64,000 nt of DNA, from contig CAIYWC010000021.1 in assembly GCA_903929795.1 (NCBI GenBank), forward strand, positions 1-64,000, read 5' to 3'. The stretch comes from an uncultured Myxococcales bacterium. GTDB lineage: Bacteria > Myxococcota_A > UBA9042. Position numbers and translations under genes: made by a program. Position 1 is the stretch's first letter. Each line of letters starts with the position of its first letter. Shown here in pieces: positions 11-55,015 of the stretch. A model generated the notes under the pieces. It saw only the letters and a program-made list of their open reading frames with translations. It searched no databases and was not told the DNA's origin.

Positions 11-150
11 ACGGGCAGCCGAAGGTGGGGCGGGCGCAGCCAAAGCTGCGGGACCGCATGTGGACGTGCGTCCGGGTGACTCCGGCGCTTCGGCGGGGTG
101 GGCCATTTTCTCGGGGCGGAGGGCCCCGGCGAAGCCGGAACTTCGACCTT
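11..150 (+). repeat. Dispersed intergenic repeat, family 2, copy 1
   Basis: Shares GGGACCGCAT..GTGGACGTGCGTCCGGG....GCGCTTCGGCGGGGTGG....CCCCGGCG with 54871-55015; boundaries approximate. Confidence 0.6.
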
Positions 151-6096: not shown

Positions 6097-6987
6097 ATGC
6101 ATCCAGAGACAACGGACCAGGCGCAGGGCGAAATCCGCCGCGTGGTCGTGATCGGCGCGGGCACCATGGGCCACGGCATCGCGCACGTGTGCGCGGCGGC
6201 GGGCTATGAGGTGTGGCTGAACGATGTCGCGGCGGCGGCGATCGACGACGGGCTGACCAAAATCCAGCAGAACCTGGCGATCGGCGTGCAAAAGGCCAAG
6301 CTGACCCAGGCGGCGGCCGATGCCACGCGCGCGCGCCTGCACGCGGAGCCGGATCTGCGGGTGGCGGCGTCGCTGGCGGATCTGGTGATCGAGGCGGCAC
6401 CGGAAAACGCCGCGCTGAAGCGGCGGATTTTCCAGACCGTGACAGAGACGCTGCCGGCGGGCGCGCTGCTGGCGAGCAACACGAGCTCGATTCCGCTGCG
6501 CCAGCTGGCGGTGGACCTGCCGCGGCCGGATCGGTTCCTGGGGCTGCATTTTTTCAATCCGGTGCACCTGCAGCCGCTGCTGGAAGTGGTGCGGGCGGAG
6601 GCGACGTCTGATGCGGCGCTGGCGAGCGCGCTGGCGTTTGCGCGGCAGCTGGGCAAGGAGCCGATCGTGGTGCGGGACGTGGCGGGCTTCGCGTCGTCGC
6701 GGCTGGGGCTGGCGCTCGGGCTGGAGGCGATCCGGATGCTGCAAGAAGGCGTGGCCAGTGCGGCGGACATCGACAAGGCGATGGAGCTGGGCTACCGGCA
6801 CCCCATGGGCCCGCTGAAGCTGACGGATCTCGTGGGGTTGGACGTTCGACTGGCGATCGCGGAGACGCTGGCGCGCGAGATCGACCCGGTGCGGTTCGCG
6901 CCGCCGCAGCTGCTGCGCGATCTGGTCGCCGCTGGCAAGCTGGGCAAGAAAACCGGCGAGGGATTCTACAAGTATGGCGAGCGGTAG
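6097..6987 (+). CDS. hbd: 3-hydroxyacyl-CoA (3-hydroxybutyryl-CoA) dehydrogenase
   Basis: VVVIGAGTMGHGIAHVCAAAGYEV Rossmann motif, SNTSSIPL, GLHFFNPV; GGGAGGT RBS before ATG. Confidence 0.9.
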   Translation: MHPETTDQAQGEIRRVVVIGAGTMGHGIAHVCAAAGYEVWLNDVAAAAIDDGLTKIQQNLAIGVQKAKLTQAAADATRARLHAEPDLRVAASLADLVIEAAPENAALKRRIFQTVTETLPAGALLASNTSSIPLRQLAVDLPRPDRFLGLHFFNPVHLQPLLEVVRAEATSDAALASALAFARQLGKEPIVVRDVAGFASSRLGLALGLEAIRMLQEGVASAADIDKAMELGYRHPMGPLKLTDLVGLDVRLAIAETLAREIDPVRFAPPQLLRDLVAAGKLGKKTGEGFYKYGER

Positions 6988-7111: not shown

Positions 7112-7252
7112 CGCAAACATGCCGACCGAAGTTCGCGATCAACCGTTCTCGATCCGAGGCGTGCCACCGGAAGTGCACGCTCTCGGTCCCAGTCCGAAAT
7201 GCGCCAGGTCTGAACGACGAATTTCGGTGTCCGACAGCGGTCGGCGTGCATG
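7112..7252 (+). repeat. Dispersed intergenic repeat, family 1, copy A
   Basis: GCAAACATGCCGACCGAAGTTCGCGATC...GCGTGCCACCGGAAGTGCACGCT...CAGTCCGAAATGC; aligns with 23366-23508 (minus) and 53168-53320. Confidence 0.75.
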
Positions 7253-7258
7253 GAGCCG

Positions 7259-8575
7259 CTACTTCGGCTCGGGCTCCTGCAGCTGCGGCAGCCGGAGTGC
7301 GAACGGGAGGATCAGCATCGACGGAATCGCCACGCTGAACGACAACAAAAAAAGCCGCGTGTAGCCGATATGCTCGACAATTTCGCCGGCCCTGGCGCCC
7401 AGCGTCGCGCCGCCGAGGCTGGTCAGCGCCGTCGCGATGGCATAGTGCGCGGCCTTGAAGCCCGGATTGCAGGTCCGCAGGGCGAACACGATGAGCGCGG
7501 AAGCGCCGAGACCGCCGGCGAACTGCTCGAAAGAATAGATGAAAGCCACGACAGGCAGGCCAGGCGCCGCGTGGGCCGGGTCTACCTTGGCGCGGGCGAC
7601 GGACCAGGCGAGCCACACATACAGCCAGATGTTCAGGTTCATGCCCAGCGTCAGCGGCCAAACGGTGCGCCGCCAGCCGTATTTCTGAATCGCCCACGCG
7701 GAGGCCAGCGAGCCAGAAGTGAGCGCCGCGCTGCCGAGAATGCCGCCAATCCACGCCAAATCCGGTTTAGATACGCCAACTTCCCGCATCAGGAACGTCG
7801 TGTTCAACGCGAACATCAGCTGGTCGCCGAGCTTGTAGGTCACCAGCAGCGCCAGCACGAGCGCAATCCCCGGTTGGCGCCGATAGCTCAGAAACGCGCG
7901 GCCGAAACCGCGCAGCGCGTCCGGCATCGACGTGCGCTGCGCGCGGGCGATCTCGACGCGCGGCAGGACCATTGTGTGAAAAATCCATAGGATCGCCAGC
8001 GCGATCGCGCCGACGCCAAAGCCCCAGTGCCAGCCGATCCAGCCCGTGAGCGCCAGGAGCGCGCTGCGCACGAACAGCTTGGCGATCTGGAACGCGAGGC
8101 TGCGCAGGCCGGTGTAGGCCGCCTGATCGGCGGGATCGGTAATGGCCTCCATGTAGTAGCCGTCGATCGCGATGTCGTGCGTGGCGGCGAAAAGGGCAAG
8201 GACCGCGAGCGTGGCGATCGCCGCCTGCAGGAGCCCGCTGCCGCTTGCCGCCGCCGCCGTCCGCGGTCCACCTGCCAAAAGCAGCGCCAGCAGGCCAAAT
8301 CCGACGACGAGCCCGCCCTCGACGACCAGCAGCCAGCGCCGCTTGGTGCCCCAGCAATCGACCGCGGGCGCCCAGAGGAATTTCAGGCTCCAGGCGAGGC
8401 CAAAATAGTTGAGGTAGCCGATCCACGCCTCTTTGACGCCAATGTCCGTCAGGTAAGCCGCGAACAGGAAGTTGATGAGCATGAACGGCAGGCCCTGCGC
8501 GAAATAGGTCGTCGAGACCCAAGTCCGCGTCAGTGCGGCGGAACGTGCGGGCGGAGCGCTGGCGGCGGTGGTCAT
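7259..8575 (-). CDS. MFS transporter, AmpG/PAT-like
   Basis: TYFAQGLPFMLINFLFAAYLTDIGVKEAWIGYLNYFGLAWSLKFLWAPAVD; about 12 hydrophobic segments. Confidence 0.8.
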   Translation of the reverse strand: MTTAASAPPARSAALTRTWVSTTYFAQGLPFMLINFLFAAYLTDIGVKEAWIGYLNYFGLAWSLKFLWAPAVDCWGTKRRWLLVVEGGLVVGFGLLALLLAGGPRTAAAASGSGLLQAAIATLAVLALFAATHDIAIDGYYMEAITDPADQAAYTGLRSLAFQIAKLFVRSALLALTGWIGWHWGFGVGAIALAILWIFHTMVLPRVEIARAQRTSMPDALRGFGRAFLSYRRQPGIALVLALLVTYKLGDQLMFALNTTFLMREVGVSKPDLAWIGGILGSAALTSGSLASAWAIQKYGWRRTVWPLTLGMNLNIWLYVWLAWSVARAKVDPAHAAPGLPVVAFIYSFEQFAGGLGASALIVFALRTCNPGFKAAHYAIATALTSLGGATLGARAGEIVEHIGYTRLFLLSFSVAIPSMLILPFALRLPQLQEPEPK

Positions 8576-21397: not shown

Positions 21398-21629
21398 GGA
21401 TTGCGCTCTTGGGCCGCACGCCGAAAGCGGCCGGGCGCGGAAGTCTATGGGGCCGCGCGGTGACGCGCAACGCACGTGGCGAAATGGTCACAAAGCGATT
21501 GGGGACAGCCGCACTCGCCGGTTTTGCTTTCTGGCTGGGTCGCCAAGGGCGCCCGCCTCTGGCGCTACGCACGGCGACACGAGATTTGCGTCGATCGCGT
21601 CACGGAGTCACGACTCCAAACCTGCGCGC

Positions 21630-23333: not shown

Positions 23334-23365
23334 GGTCACCGTGGGCTCCGCAACGGCCGGCAGTC

Positions 23366-23508
23366 TACACATGCTGACCCACTGGCGACATCAAATTCTT
23401 GGCGGCAGACCTGTTGCATTTCGGACTGGATCCACGAGCGTGCACCTCCGGTGGCACGCCGCGGATGACGGAGGCCGAGACGTTGGAATTCGGTCAGCGT
23501 GTCTTGCA
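23366..23508 (-). repeat. Dispersed intergenic repeat, family 1, copy B
   Basis: Reverse complement GCAAGACACGCTGACCGAATTCC...GCGTGCCACCGGAGGTGCACGCTCGTGGATCCAGTCCGAAATGCAACAGGTCTG...GTCAGCATGTGTAGA; abuts the ridA-like stop codon. Confidence 0.75.
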
Positions 23509-23934
23509 TCACGCCGGCTGCGCCACCGCCGCGACGCATTTGAGCTCGATGGCGATCGGCGTCGGGAGGCTGCTGATCTCCACCGTCGTGCGACATGGCG
23601 GATTCTCGGCGAAATATGTCGCCCAGAGCCGGTTGTAGGTCGCGAAATCGCGCTTCATGTCGGTCAGGTAGACCGTGACGTCGACAAGGTCCTGCCAATC
23701 GGCGCCGCACGCTTGCAACACCGCGCGGACATTGGCAAAAACGCTGTGACACTGCGCCTCGATGTCGTGGTCGATGACCTCGCCGGCGGCGTTCAGCGTC
23801 ACGCCGGGGATGGCCTTTTGGCCCTTGACCCGCGGGCCAATGCCGCTCAGGAACAGCAGGTTGCCGGCGCGGCGCGCATGGGGATACGCGCCGACAGGCT
23901 CGGCCGCGCGGTCGCTGTGGATGGCTTCGCTCAT
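23509..23934 (-). CDS. RidA/YjgF family protein, possible 2-aminomuconate deaminase
   Basis: VGAYPHARRAGNLLFLSGIGPR...DLVDVTVYLTDMKRDFATYNRLWATYF...IELKCVA; adjacent to ALDH and cyclase. Confidence 0.8.
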   Translation of the reverse strand: MSEAIHSDRAAEPVGAYPHARRAGNLLFLSGIGPRVKGQKAIPGVTLNAAGEVIDHDIEAQCHSVFANVRAVLQACGADWQDLVDVTVYLTDMKRDFATYNRLWATYFAENPPCRTTVEISSLPTPIAIELKCVAAVAQPA

Positions 23935-35096: not shown

Positions 35097-35537
35097 TCAG
35101 TAGCGAATCTTCAGCACCAGCTCCAGCGGCGATTCGGCGAACGCGAACTTGGCGTCGTCGAATTTCGGCGGTCCCATGCGGCCTTTGGCGTGATTGGACG
35201 CGACCATTCCCTCGTTCGGGATGCCCAGCCAGTTCGTGTCCAGCTTGCGGTTGCCGTTCTCGTCGTGAAAACACGCCAGCGCGTAGGTTCCCGGCGCCAG
35301 GCCGTCAAACCGCAGCGTCGCGCTGCCCGCGGCAATCGCGCCCCAGTGCAGCGCGCGCGCCAGCGCCGGGTCAGTCGGATAGCCCTTGGGCTGGTCCCAC
35401 AGCCAGCAACCAACCTGACCGCTGGCCGAATGCAGCCCTTCCACGCGCACTTTCAGCGCGCCCGCCGCCGGTTCAGCCGCCGTCGCCGCCAGGGCCAGCG
35501 CCGCGCTGAGCACGCCCATCCCGCGCGCCAAGCTCAT
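35097..35537 (-). CDS. DUF2141-like secreted protein
   Basis: Signal peptide; LAPGTYALACFHDENGNRKLDTNWLGIPNEGMVASNHAKGRMGPPKFDDAKF. Confidence 0.8.
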   Translation of the reverse strand: MSLARGMGVLSAALALAATAAEPAAGALKVRVEGLHSASGQVGCWLWDQPKGYPTDPALARALHWGAIAAGSATLRFDGLAPGTYALACFHDENGNRKLDTNWLGIPNEGMVASNHAKGRMGPPKFDDAKFAFAESPLELVLKIRY

Positions 35538-38500
35538 GGGCAGTTCGGGATCGCGGTGTGGATGCAGTTGCCGTTCGTGGCGTTGCAGCTGTCCGCGGTG
35601 CACGCGTTGTTGTCGTTGCAGTTCTTGGCGGTGCCGGCGCAGGTGCCCGCGGTGCAGGTGTCAGCGTTGGTGCATGGATCGGCGTCGTTGCATGGCGCGC
35701 CGGTCTGCGCGGTGCCGGTGCACTTGCCGGCGGCGCAGTGGTCCTGCGTCGTGCACGCGTTGTTGTCATTGCAATTGTTCACGTTATTCGCCGTGCCTGC
35801 GCAGACGCCCGCGGTGCACGTGTCCTGGCTAGTGCAGACGTTGTTGTCGTTGCAGTTGCCGCCGGTCGCGGCCGTGTGCGTGCACGCGCCGGAGGTGGCG
35901 TCGCAGCTGTCCGTCGTGCAGGGGTTGTTGTCGTTGCACTGCGGCGCGGTACCGGCGCAGACACCGGCGGTGCACACGTCGTTGGTGGTGCACGCGTTGC
36001 CGTCATTGCACGGGACATTGCCGCCGCCACCGCCGCCGCCGCCGCCGCCGACGTTGGTGTGTTGGCAGTTGCCCGTCCCCGGCTGGCAGAAGTCGTTGGT
36101 GCAGCTGTTGCCGTCGTCGCAGCTCTTGGCGACGCCGCCGGTGCAGGTCCCGATCTGACACGCTTCGCCGGTCGTGCAGGCGTTGTTGTCATTGCAGGTC
36201 GTGCCGTTGGCGGCGTCCTTGACCGCGCAAGTGCTCGTCGTCAGGTCGCAATACGGCACAATGCACGCGTTGGCGTTGCCGGTGCACTGCGCGTCCGTCG
36301 TGCACGCGCCGCCGCAGTTCTGGATGACCGTGTGCTGGCAGCCGCCGCCAAAGCCGCCGCCACCGCCGCCGCCGCCGTTGGGGTTGCACGAATCCGCGGT
36401 GCACGGGTTGCCGTCGTCGCAGTTCAGTACCGTGCCGGCGCAGACGCCCGCGGTGCAGACGTCCTGGTTGGTGCAGGCGTTGCCGTCGTTGCAGGCGCTG
36501 CCGGTCGACGCGGTGTGGGTGCAGCTGCCGGTCGTGGCGTCGCAGGCGTCGGCCGTGCACGCGTTGTTGTCGTTGCAGTTGGGCGCGGTGCCGGTGCACG
36601 TGCCGTTCTGGCAGTGATCCGCGGTCGTGCAGAGGTTATTGTCGTTGCAAGTCGTGGTGTTCTGCAGGTTGACGACAGCGCAGGTCAGCAGCTGCAGGTT
36701 GCAGGTCTGCGTCGTGCACGCGTTGCCGGTGCTGGGGCAGTCGGCGTTGGTCGCGCAGTTGCCGCCGCAGCCGGCGATCGGCGTGTTCAGGCACGCGCCG
36801 GTGATCACGTCGCAGCTGTCCGCCGTGCAGTTGTTCTGGTCGTTGCAGTTCTTGGCGTTGCCGGGCGTGCAGGTGCCGTTTGTGCAGCGGTCGTTGGTCG
36901 TGCAGGCGTTGCCGTCCGAGCACGCGTTGCCACCGCCAAAGCCACCGCCGCCGATGGGCGTGAACACGCAGTTCCCGGTGTTGGCGTTGCAGGTGTCGTT
37001 CGTGCACTGGTTGCCGTCGTTGCAGACCTTGGCGCCGCTGCCGATGCAGGTGCCGCCGGTGCACGCGCTGGCCGATGTGCACGCGTTCTTGTCGTCGCAC
37101 ACCGTGCCGTCGGTCTTGACCACGGAGCTGCAGGTCGACGTCGTCAGGTTGCAGAACGCCTGGACGCACGTGTTGGCGGGCGCGGGGCAATCGGCGTCAG
37201 TGGCGCAGAAGTTGCCGCAGCCGGCAATGGGCGTGAACACGCAGTTACCATTGTTTTGATTGCAAGAATCCGCGGTGCAGCTGTTCGAGTCGTTGCACAC
37301 CTTGACCGGTCCGCCGACGCACGCGCCGTTCGCGCACTGGTCGCCGGTTGTGCACGCGTTGCCGTCCGTGCAGTTCAGCGTGTTGTTCGTGTGCGTGCAG
37401 GTGCCCGTCGTCGGGTCGCAGCCATCATTGGTGCAGACCAGGTTGTCGTTGCAGTTCACGGGCGCGGTGCCTTCGCACACGCCGTTGAAGCAGACGTCGG
37501 TCTTGGTGCACGCGTTGTTGTCGTTGCACGCGGTCGCGTTGGCGACCGGCTTGGCGGAACAAGTGGCGCCCGCGGTGCAGTAATTCACCAGGCAGACGTC
37601 CGTGGACGTGCCGCAATCGGCGTCCACTTTGCAGGCGTTGCTGCAGCCGGCGATGGCCGTGTGCGTGCAGGCGCCGCTCGTGGCGTCGCAAGCGTCAGTC
37701 GTGCAGCTGTTGAAGTCGTTGCAGTCCTTCGCGACGCCGCCCGTGCACGCGCCCGCGACGCACGCGTCCGCGCTGGTGCACGGGTTATTGTCGTTGCACA
37801 CCACGTTGTTCAGCGCGTTGTTTGTGCAGGCGCCGGTGGTGGCGTTGCACTGGTCGGTCGTGCACGGGTTGTTGTCGTTGCACGTGTTGGTCGTGCCGCC
37901 GGTGCAGTTGCCGCCCGCGTTGCAGGTCTCGCCGGTGCGACAGGCGTTGCCGCTGCTGCACGTCGTGCCCTGGGCCAACGGCGCGCTGCCGCACTGGTTG
38001 GTCGCCAGGTTGCAGGTCGCCGCGCGGCAGGTGTTCGACGGCGTCGGGCAGTCGCTGTTTTTCAAGCAGAATCCGCCGCAGCCGCTCAGCGCGGTGTTCA
38101 CGCAGGCGCCGGTCGTGGCGTCGCAGCTATCCGCGGTGCAGGCGTTGTTGTCGTTGCAGTTCTTGGCGGTGCCGGTGCACTTGCCAGCGACGCACGCGTC
38201 CGCGGTTGTGCACAGGCTGCCGTCGTTGCAGGTCGCGGTGTTGTTGGTGTGCGTGCAGCCGTTGATCGGGTCGCAGGCATCGTCGGTGCAGACGTTGCCA
38301 TCGTCGCAGTTCTTGGCGATGCCGGGCGTGCAGACGGTCGCGGCGCAGACGTCGCCCTCGGTGCAAACGTTGCCGTCGTCGCAGGCCAGCGAATTCGCCG
38401 TGTGCAGGCAGCCGCCGGTCAGATCGCACGCGTCATTGGTGCAGACATTGCCGTCATCGCACGACGGCGTGGTGCCCACGCAGACGCCGCCCTGGCACGC

Positions 38501-40852
38501 GTCGTTGGTTGTGCACGCGTTGTGGTCGTTACACGCCGCGGTGTTGGGCGTGTAGACGCAGCCGCCGGTGGCGTCGCAACTGTCCGTGGTGCACGGGTTG
38601 TTGTCGTCGCAGACCACGTTGGGCGTGCCGGCGCAGGTGCCAGCGGTGCACAGGTCGTTGGTCGTGCAGGCGCTCTTGTCGTTGCACGGCGTGGCGTCGG
38701 CGGCGGCGACGTCGCTGCACTTGCCGGTGGCCGGCGCGCAGGTGTTGACCTGACACTCGACGCCGCTGGAGGCGCAGGCGACGACAGTCGCGGCATCGAC
38801 AACGCACTTGCTGGCGGCGCAAATCAGCGTGCCGTTGCAGAGGTTGCCGTCTTCGAACTTTGCGCAATCGCTGGTGATCGTGCAGGCGCAGCTGCCGGTG
38901 CCCGGCTTGCATGCGCCGTTGGCGCAGACGTCCCCGGTGGTGCACGCGTTGCCATCGCTACACGGCAACGTATTCGCCGCGAACACGCAACCGCTGGCTT
39001 TGCTGCAGGAATCCGTCGTGCACGGGTTGCCGTCGTCGCAGACGATGCTGCCGGCACCGACGCAGGTGCCCGCGGTGCAGACGTCGCCGGTTGTGCACGG
39101 GTTGCCGTCGTCGCAACCGATGTCCGTCGCGGCGGCTGGCAAGTGCACGCAACCAGTGGCCACGTCGCAGGAATCCGCCGTGCAGGGGTTCGAGTCGTCG
39201 CACGTGTTCGGCGCGCCGGTGCAGGTGCCGTCGTAACACGCGTCGTTCACGGTGCAGACCGAGCCGTCGTCGCAGCTGCCAGCCTGCGGCGTGTTCACGC
39301 ACATGCCGGTCACTGTGTCGCAGCCATCGAGGGTGCACGGGTTCTTGTCGTCGCAGTTCTTCAACGCGCCGCTCGCGCATGCGCCCGCCGCGCACGCGTC
39401 GGGACCGGTGCACAGGTTACCGTCTTCGCACGCGCTCGTGTTGTTCACGTGGACGCAGCCGGTGGCGGGCGCGCACGAGTCGTCGGTGCAGATGTTGTTG
39501 TCGTCGCACACGACCGTCTGGCCGGTGCAGAGCCCGACCACGCAGCTGTCGCCGTCCGTGCAGGCGTTGGCGTCGGTGCAGCTGGCGCCATCGGCGAGGG
39601 CAAACGCCACGCAGTTGCCGCTGGCCGGGTCGCACGATGCGGTCTGGCAGGCGCTGGGCGCGGCGCAGGTCACAACCGTGCCGCCGACGCAGGTTCCGGC
39701 GTTGCACATGTCGCTGACGGTGCACAGGTTGCCGTCGTCGCAGGCGGAGCCGTTCGGGTTGGGGGTCGAGCTGCAGCCCGCGGTCGGATCGCAGCTGTCG
39801 GTCGTGCAGGGGTTGCCGTCGTTGCAGACCACCGCCGTGCCCTTGCACGCGCCGTTGACGCAGGCGTCATTGTCCGTGCAGGCGCTGCCGTCCGTGCACG
39901 CGCCGGTGCTGATCGGCGCGTGGCTGCAAGCGCCCAGCGTGGTGTCGCAGGCGTCGGTCGTGCAGGGGTTGTTGTCATCGCAGGACGCCGCGCCAACCTG
40001 CTGGCACTTGCCCGCGGTGCACGTGCCGGTGGCGCAGAACACGCCGGCGACATCGCACGAGCCGCCGGTCGCCGCCGTGTGCGCGCACGCGCCGTTGGTG
40101 CAGGCGTCGGTCGTGCAGGCCTCGCCATCGTCGCAGCTGACGTTTTCGTCGGTCTGGCCGTTGCAGTTGTCGTCCTTGCCGTTGCACGTTTCGGTCGCCG
40201 GAGCGGGTGCGTTGCAGGCAGTCAGGCCAGAGGTGACGCAAACGCGCTTGCCGCTGCAGGTGCCAAACGCGTTGGTGGCGGAGCACGGCGTCGACAAGCC
40301 TGCGGCGATCGCGCTGGCGGAGCAATTCGTGCATTCGCCGGAGCCGATTTTGCCCTGGTCCATCGGACGGCACACCTGCGCGCTGACGCCAGACGTCACG
40401 TCCGTGGCAAGCTCCAACACGAAGCCCTCGGGGCAATCGGGGCCGACCGAGGCGCAGAAGCTGCCGCCCGACGCCTGCGCCACGCAGAGCCCGCCGTCGC
40501 AGGTGCTCGCGTCGGTGCAGGGATCGCACAAATGCTGATCTTTCGCGGTGTTGGTCGCCGCATCCGCCGTGTCGACCGCATCGCCCGTCGTGTCGGCCCC
40601 GTCCGCGATCGCGGCGTCCGTGCCGGCTGCGTCCGTGCCGGCTGCGTCCGTGCCCGCGGCATCCTTGGTCGCGATGTCGCCGAGCGCGTCGGCGTCCGTC
40701 ACCGTGGTGCTGATGTCGGCGTCGTCGCCGCTCACCGCGTCGGCCAAGCTGGCGCCCGCGACAGCGGAGTCGTCACCGCAACCGACGGCGAGAACCGTCA
40801 GCACCGCGAAAAGGCCGAAAACCGAAGCAAGACGACAACTAGGCAGAGACAT
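35534..40852 (-). CDS. Giant (1,772 aa) lipoprotein of Cys-rich tandem repeats resembling the Dictyostelium CTDC repeat
   Basis: LTVLAVGCGDD lipobox, D/A-rich linker, then more than 40 CNDGNPCTTDSC-like units; start overlaps neither neighbour; stop overlaps DUF2141 start. Confidence 0.9.
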   Translation of the reverse strand: MSLPSCRLASVFGLFAVLTVLAVGCGDDSAVAGASLADAVSGDDADISTTVTDADALGDIATKDAAGTDAAGTDAAGTDAAIADGADTTGDAVDTADAATNTAKDQHLCDPCTDASTCDGGLCVAQASGGSFCASVGPDCPEGFVLELATDVTSGVSAQVCRPMDQGKIGSGECTNCSASAIAAGLSTPCSATNAFGTCSGKRVCVTSGLTACNAPAPATETCNGKDDNCNGQTDENVSCDDGEACTTDACTNGACAHTAATGGSCDVAGVFCATGTCTAGKCQQVGAASCDDNNPCTTDACDTTLGACSHAPISTGACTDGSACTDNDACVNGACKGTAVVCNDGNPCTTDSCDPTAGCSSTPNPNGSACDDGNLCTVSDMCNAGTCVGGTVVTCAAPSACQTASCDPASGNCVAFALADGASCTDANACTDGDSCVVGLCTGQTVVCDDNNICTDDSCAPATGCVHVNNTSACEDGNLCTGPDACAAGACASGALKNCDDKNPCTLDGCDTVTGMCVNTPQAGSCDDGSVCTVNDACYDGTCTGAPNTCDDSNPCTADSCDVATGCVHLPAAATDIGCDDGNPCTTGDVCTAGTCVGAGSIVCDDGNPCTTDSCSKASGCVFAANTLPCSDGNACTTGDVCANGACKPGTGSCACTITSDCAKFEDGNLCNGTLICAASKCVVDAATVVACASSGVECQVNTCAPATGKCSDVAAADATPCNDKSACTTNDLCTAGTCAGTPNVVCDDNNPCTTDSCDATGGCVYTPNTAACNDHNACTTNDACQGGVCVGTTPSCDDGNVCTNDACDLTGGCLHTANSLACDDGNVCTEGDVCAATVCTPGIAKNCDDGNVCTDDACDPINGCTHTNNTATCNDGSLCTTADACVAGKCTGTAKNCNDNNACTADSCDATTGACVNTALSGCGGFCLKNSDCPTPSNTCRAATCNLATNQCGSAPLAQGTTCSSGNACRTGETCNAGGNCTGGTTNTCNDNNPCTTDQCNATTGACTNNALNNVVCNDNNPCTSADACVAGACTGGVAKDCNDFNSCTTDACDATSGACTHTAIAGCSNACKVDADCGTSTDVCLVNYCTAGATCSAKPVANATACNDNNACTKTDVCFNGVCEGTAPVNCNDNLVCTNDGCDPTTGTCTHTNNTLNCTDGNACTTGDQCANGACVGGPVKVCNDSNSCTADSCNQNNGNCVFTPIAGCGNFCATDADCPAPANTCVQAFCNLTTSTCSSVVKTDGTVCDDKNACTSASACTGGTCIGSGAKVCNDGNQCTNDTCNANTGNCVFTPIGGGGFGGGNACSDGNACTTNDRCTNGTCTPGNAKNCNDQNNCTADSCDVITGACLNTPIAGCGGNCATNADCPSTGNACTTQTCNLQLLTCAVVNLQNTTTCNDNNLCTTADHCQNGTCTGTAPNCNDNNACTADACDATTGSCTHTASTGSACNDGNACTNQDVCTAGVCAGTVLNCDDGNPCTADSCNPNGGGGGGGGFGGGCQHTVIQNCGGACTTDAQCTGNANACIVPYCDLTTSTCAVKDAANGTTCNDNNACTTGEACQIGTCTGGVAKSCDDGNSCTNDFCQPGTGNCQHTNVGGGGGGGGGGNVPCNDGNACTTNDVCTAGVCAGTAPQCNDNNPCTTDSCDATSGACTHTAATGGNCNDNNVCTSQDTCTAGVCAGTANNVNNCNDNNACTTQDHCAAGKCTGTAQTGAPCNDADPCTNADTCTAGTCAGTAKNCNDNNACTADSCNATNGNCIHTAIPNCP

Positions 40853-53167: not shown

Positions 53168-53320
53168 GCATGAGCAAACACTCAGACCGAAGTTTGAGTT
53201 CAGCCGTTCCCGATTCGCGGGGTCGCACCGGAGGTGCACGCTCGCGATCCCAGTCTGAAATGCAACAGCCCTAAGCGACGAAGTTTGGTGTTGGACATCG
53301 GTCAGGATGTGTAGAGGTTG
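53168..53320 (+). repeat. Dispersed intergenic repeat, family 1, copy C
   Basis: GCATGAGCAAACACTCAGACCGAAGTTTG...TCGCACCGGAGGTGCACGCTCGCGATCCCAGTCTGAAATGCAACAG...GGTCAGGATGTGTAGA. Confidence 0.75.
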
Positions 53321-54626: not shown

Positions 54627-54870
54627 CACGCGGCGGCTGCGTCCAATGGATGGGCAAGCGGCTGATTTTCAATGGCTCAGCTACTTTTTCTCCGCCGCTT
54701 GGACTTTTCTTGCGCGGCAAAAGTCGCCAGGGTCCGAACACCCTATCAGCGCGCCGACCGAGGCGTGCCGGCGGATGGCCAAGGCGATCGTACGGTCGGA
54801 CGAGGCCACCGTCTTCATCAACCAGGCCGGCGTGGCCGCCGCGGACTCTGACTGGAAGTCAGGTCAAGGC

Positions 54871-55015
54871 GAGCCGCCGAAGGATGGAGCGGCACGTCGC
54901 CCAAAAGCGCCGTGGGACCGCATTGGTGGACGTGCGTCCGGGCCTCGGTCAGGACGCGCTTCGGCGGGGTGGACGCAAAGTCGGGTGGACCCCGGCGCAA
55001 AAGCCGCCCGTGCGC
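54871..55015 (+). repeat. Dispersed intergenic repeat, family 2, copy 2
   Basis: GTGGGACCGCATTGGTGGACGTGCGTCCGGG...GCGCTTCGGCGGGGTGG...ACCCCGGCG, matching 11-150. Confidence 0.6.

Follow-up and report, generated by a model that had tools for sequence, protein, structure and literature searches.

Three copies of a 141-bp repeat

The window (the whole 64,000-nucleotide stretch of an uncultured Myxococcales genome analyzed here) contains three copies of a dispersed repeat (Table 1). Copy A lies between convergent genes, a 3-hydroxyacyl-CoA dehydrogenase gene on the forward strand that ends at 6987 and an MFS transporter gene on the reverse strand that ends at 7259. Copy B lies directly past an L-PSP-family gene (stop at 23509) and ahead of the next gene, with both genes on the reverse strand, while copy C lies upstream of an impB/mucB/samB-family DNA polymerase gene (gene model start 53448). 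The initial annotation had described three blocks of about 140 bp that align over their length, and all three are present and real; it did not state the strand of copy B, which is reverse, with A and C being forward. The core motif was matched five times in the window at up to three mismatches, compared with a mean of 0.67 in shuffled sequence, and a chance origin of the repeat is excluded.

Table 1 Positions of the repeat copies in the window and of the parts of copy A; the coordinates of copies A, B and C take in the terminal CTA/TAG positions
Feature	Coordinates	Strand	Basis
MITE copy A	7113..7253	+	nhmmer/cmsearch 7115-7251 = model positions 3-139
MITE copy B	23365..23506	-	cmsearch 23366-23504
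MITE copy C	53174..53314	+	cmsearch 53176-53313
Left terminal inverted repeat of copy A	7113..7143	+	family consensus CTATACACTCCGACCGAAGTTCGAGATCAA
Right terminal inverted repeat of copy A	7223..7253	+	family consensus TTTGGTGTTGGACATCGGTCAGCATGTTTAG
Internal hairpin of copy A	7153..7188	+	GATCCGAGGCGTGCCACCGGAAGTGCACGCTCTCGGTC region; also predicted when A is folded as a single strand

Copies of the family are full-length and uniform, with a unit of about 141 bp, a GC content of 53–66% and the consensus CTATACACTCCGACCGAAGTTCGAGATC ... CCGCGGCGTGCCACCGGAGGTGCACGCTCGCGG ... CAGTCCGAAATGCAACAGGTCTGACCG ... TTTGGTGTTGGACATCGGTCAGCATGTTTAG. Imperfect terminal inverted repeats of about 30 bp end in CTA...TAG, conservation ends abruptly at CTA and TAG, and the left and right ends pair in 81% of terminal-stem cells across 102 distinct copies. 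The unit is short, non-coding and without a transposase gene, as MITEs are. The consensus can be read without interruption in one frame up to a final TAG; a protein-coding repeat was ruled out by codon-position entropies of 0.60, 0.63 and 0.69 with no periodicity (p = 0.58), and also by frame-breaking indels in copies.

Distribution and target sites

A DNA search of the window’s own genome with copy C returned at least 40 scored matches (138 first-look candidates; E from 4e-75 to 5e-19), and a 25-base left-end pattern with up to three mismatches had 67 matches there (36 forward, 31 reverse), compared with 0 for its reversed control. The initial annotation had proposed a genome-wide search and had allowed for an outcome without further copies, and many more copies were found. 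Copy density was 27.5/Mb in the window’s genome (400 kb of stretches), 19.4/Mb in congener G001 (1.6 Mb) and 15/Mb in congener G003 (400 kb), which extrapolates to ~90–175 MITE copies per genome. We also searched a sequence-only model in five genomes of the genus and 48 other relatives. The five genus genomes had at least 61, at least 61, at least 61, 49 and 26 copies, whereas the repeat was found in none of the 48 relatives (17 other members of the family and 31 more distant). Among 84,980 species genomes, a 30-base pattern matched two assemblies only, both of them uncultured Myxococcales MAGs of the genus.

Three contigs of the window’s own genome end in an identical copy (L012–L014), which points to recent duplication or activity. 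Nested copies, joined end to end at a shared CTA, occur at L090, L073 and L103, and many copies are old and degenerate, such that some termini are no longer TA.

To assess insertion sites, the sequences on either side of each copy were fused at a single TA, and the fused sequence was sought in the available stretches of other genomes. Six clean empty sites between species were recovered, each with insertion at TA and duplication of the TA, and the targets were CTAG in four cases and GTAG in two. For window copy B, the occupied site reads CCGGCAGTC-TA[element]TT-GCATCACG, compared with GCGGGCAGTG-TA-GCATCACG with a single TA in G004 (L206); the right-hand TA has become TT in the window through one change, and the site is empty in G003 and G002 as well. 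The copy at L029 corresponds to GTC-TA-GCG at the empty site in L179, and that at L052 to CAG-TA-GATGTGC in L142, where the element entered the stop codon TAG of a gene that now ends in TAA. The copy at L026, and that at L024 with the same flanks, sits within another dispersed repeat that is empty in L174 (GAGC-TA-GCC). Conversely, a copy at L179 in G001 is empty in L029 of the window’s genome (G000), and one at L224 in G003 is empty in L188 of G001. These gains in both directions between species indicate that the element moved in several lineages.

Copy A is missing in all four congeners, in which its two flanking genes nearly abut, and it lies within an insertion of ~270 bp between the convergent genes. 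In the three congeners for which the DNA upstream of the orthologous polymerase gene was available, that DNA holds no equivalent of copy C. One insertion was kept in the same stop codon and the same orientation in two species (L006/L063). We rejected L008/L117 as a shared orthologous copy because the two are in opposite orientation, and they are probably two independent insertions. Across the family, the outer C was present in 65/95 copies and the outer G in 70/95. Elements of the IS630 family use TA as their insertion site and leave it duplicated, and IS630 itself favors the TA of 5'-CTAG-3' (PMC2170065; for the latter also the title of Tenzen and Ohtsubo 1991, cited therein).

Further repeats were seen in the same stretches. 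Positions 21523–21597 of the window hold a second dispersed repeat of ~75 bp, GGCTGGGTCGCCAAGGGCGCCCGCC...GCACGGCGACACGAGATT. Stretches of G001 and G000 contain eight or more partial matches to it at 77–88%, and a MITE copy at L047 is inserted inside a repeat of this type. The dispersed repeat that holds the insertion at L024/L026 is ~130 bp long (CCGATTCTGGATGCAGTTCAAGGAGCTAG...) and also occurs at L174:11031-11167, L209, L139, L171 and L175, with several MITE-free copies in G001. Window positions 12–101 and 54870–54972 are ~75% alike and are possibly a further repeat family, and a long gene of ~1756 aa at 35534–40804 on the reverse strand has many diverged internal repeats.

Stop codons and the internal hairpin

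Gene calls from a purpose-written codon-usage gene caller were used to place 97 non-redundant copies relative to gene ends. A terminus formed a gene’s predicted stop codon in 49 of the 97, at one exact offset, with 42 stop codons at the right end (26 TAA, 8 TAG, 8 TGA) and 8 at the left, one copy being counted for both ends. The share expected if any TA outside genes or in stop codons were equally likely was 21–22% (p < 1e-9), and it rose to 36–49% by genome if CTAG was required (p 0.003 to 0.76). CTAG targeting thus explains most of the effect. CTAG is rare in this GC-rich genome, and harmless CTAG targets would often be a TAG stop preceded by C, such that insertions would collect in stop codons. 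With the right end facing the gene, TA followed by A(ACATG) would yield a TAA stop and be tolerated, while with the left end facing the gene, TA followed by T or C would usually give the Tyr codons TAT or TAC, and such insertions would mostly be lost. The right-end bias would then follow from the terminal sequence, which fits the 42 right-end and 8 left-end stop codons.

The central hairpin with a covarying stem described in the initial annotation is conserved, but its covariation is modest, and the outer-stem differences among copies A, B and C that had been read as covariation are in part subfamily differences. Across the 102 distinct copies, 89.8% of hairpin cells were paired. Two-sided changes affected 7/15 hairpin pairs, compared with 3.4 ± 1.2 in shuffles and 3–9 in slid controls, and numbered 22 in total compared with 10.1 ± 2.3 in shuffles, though one slid control reached 20. 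The outermost hairpin pair (columns 42/78) was unpaired in 58/102 copies, and several terminal-stem positions varied between G-U, G-C and A-U on one strand. Unbiased covariation, measured as corrected mutual information, was dominated by subfamily linkage rather than helices, z-scores of single-strand RNA folds ranged from −1.2 to −2.9, and no known RNA family in Rfam matched in the window. The fold is real and is given largely by the terminal inverted repeats together with one internal hairpin. The selected structured RNA that had been suggested for the locus is thus not needed to account for this fold, with covariation modest and z-scores mild, although the hairpin may possibly have a selected RNA function.

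We weighed more fully whether the repeat is such an RNA (a 3'-UTR hairpin, attenuator, processing site or small RNA), spread by transposition and kept for its function at gene ends. The pairing of the hairpin, its excess of two-sided changes over shuffles, the one-strand pattern of the terminal stem and the exact offset at which about half of the copies form a stop codon are all consistent with this reading. Against it, the empty orthologous sites mean that many copies are lineage-specific and dispensable, the covariation is modest relative to slid controls and inflated by subfamily structure, folding z-scores are mild with no match in Rfam, and CTAG targeting largely predicts where the stop codons fall; we regard it as unlikely. 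A further reading is similarly improbable, namely that a CTAG-targeting MITE has captured stop codons and gene 3' ends by the dozen in each genome of the genus, and that selection retains its hairpin as an RNA element of general use at 3' ends, with roles in transcript end, stability or the separation of convergent genes; the insertion kept at L006/L063 would fit it.

A candidate IS630 partner

A search for the DDE_3 domain across the five genus genomes identified a 1.23-kb IS630 element, present in a single copy, in congener G004 (L191:1379-2608). Its inverted repeats, CTAAACACTCCGACCGAAGTC and GACTTCGGTCGGAATGTTTAG, are 95% complementary, and its ends differ from the left consensus of the MITE at 1/21 and 3/21 positions; the ends of this element are more alike than are the left and right ends of the MITE. 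On one strand, the element encodes an HTH protein (199 aa, 77 bits) and a DDE_3 protein (196 aa, 91.3 bits) in two overlapping ORFs, whose overlap sits at a run of eight identical bases, which suggests that the transposase may be made by programmed frameshifting at this run. Another genus of the family carries a 71% identical transposase (L196), bounded by related ends (TATACACCCTGACCGAACGACAAGATCA). No matching IS630 transposase was detected at E ≤ 1e-6 in the window’s own genome, whose assembly (G000) is 94% complete, comprises 236 contigs and breaks at repeats, and the single DDE_3 match there is broken.

Taken with the target sites, these ends make it very likely that the repeat is a non-coding MITE of the IS630/Tc1-mariner type that carries IS630 ends. 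Points against this reading are that no matching transposase was detected in the window’s own genome, that the element in G004 is a single copy, that the MITE ends are the less alike, and that many copies are degenerate. The transposase of an IS like that in G004 would bind the terminal repeats of the MITE in trans, cut the MITE out and paste it into TA, and the MITE is presumably mobilized in this way. The initial annotation had listed a non-autonomous mobile element among its options, and this is the one that stood, with a class that can now be named; degraded ends of a known IS, which it had offered as the outcome against its proposal, were not seen, as the copies are full-length and uniform, though their termini match an IS630 element.

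Some IS5-family elements also have CTAG-type targets, and the repeat might instead derive from a different IS family that targets TA or CTAG, such as the IS427 group of IS5; we consider this very unlikely, given that the search for DDE_3 elements yielded one of the IS630 family that matches at both ends. A repeat of the REP/BIME or REPIN type, mobilized by a REP-associated tyrosine transposase, would share the high copy number, intergenic location and hairpin formation. This reading, whose REP/BIME-like form was also named in the initial annotation, is scarcely credible for a 141-bp unit with terminal inverted repeats of ~30 bp (REP units are 20–40 bp palindromes) that duplicates TA and whose ends match those of a DDE (IS630) element.

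An IS630-type MITE has parallels in other bacteria. In anatomy and mode of insertion it resembles RUP (repeat unit of pneumococcus) with IS630-Spn1, an intergenic MITE of ~107 bp and ~100 copies with IS630-like ends and TA insertion (PMC2229807, PMC3049150); the Myxococcales MITE is distinguished by a GC content of 53–66%, an internal hairpin and frequent placement within the stop codon. Neisseria has small MITEs of its own, the Correia/NEMIS elements, likewise with terminal inverted repeats and more than 100 copies (PMC10969869), but these mostly precede genes and bring promoters and RNase III sites with them. IS630/ISY100 elements of the Tc1/mariner superfamily share the TA target duplication and, for IS630, the CTAG preference (PMC2170065), and the candidate partner has their anatomy, but they are autonomous with a transposase gene, which the MITE does not have. 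In pneumococcus, the neighboring gene takes its stop codon from a BOX copy in 36 cases (PMC3049150), yet BOX is modular and tied to ISSpn2, while the Myxococcales MITE forms the stop from its terminal bases at one fixed offset.

Our best reading is a new MITE family of a well-known kind, in one uncultured Myxococcales genus. We found no published description of such a family in Myxococcota within the open-licence literature, which is weak evidence of novelty. For uncultured Myxococcales, this adds a MITE family of high copy number, apparently not described before, for which there are empty sites, a clear target and a candidate parent IS. In this family, a simple CTAG preference in a GC-rich genome would steer insertions into stop codons, with the terminal A of the element supplying a new TAA, which offers a testable account of why such repeats may give the impression of having been made for gene 3' ends.

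Further IS630 elements in the genus, at L190:231-1764 in G002 and at the contig starts of L197 and L199 in G001, were rejected as partners, as their terminal repeats differ. These elements likewise end in CTAG-like or TA flanks, and the last 200 bases of L190, on the same contig as its IS630 element, hold two copy-B-like MITE ends (CAGACACGCTGACCGAATTCC) ~140 bases apart.
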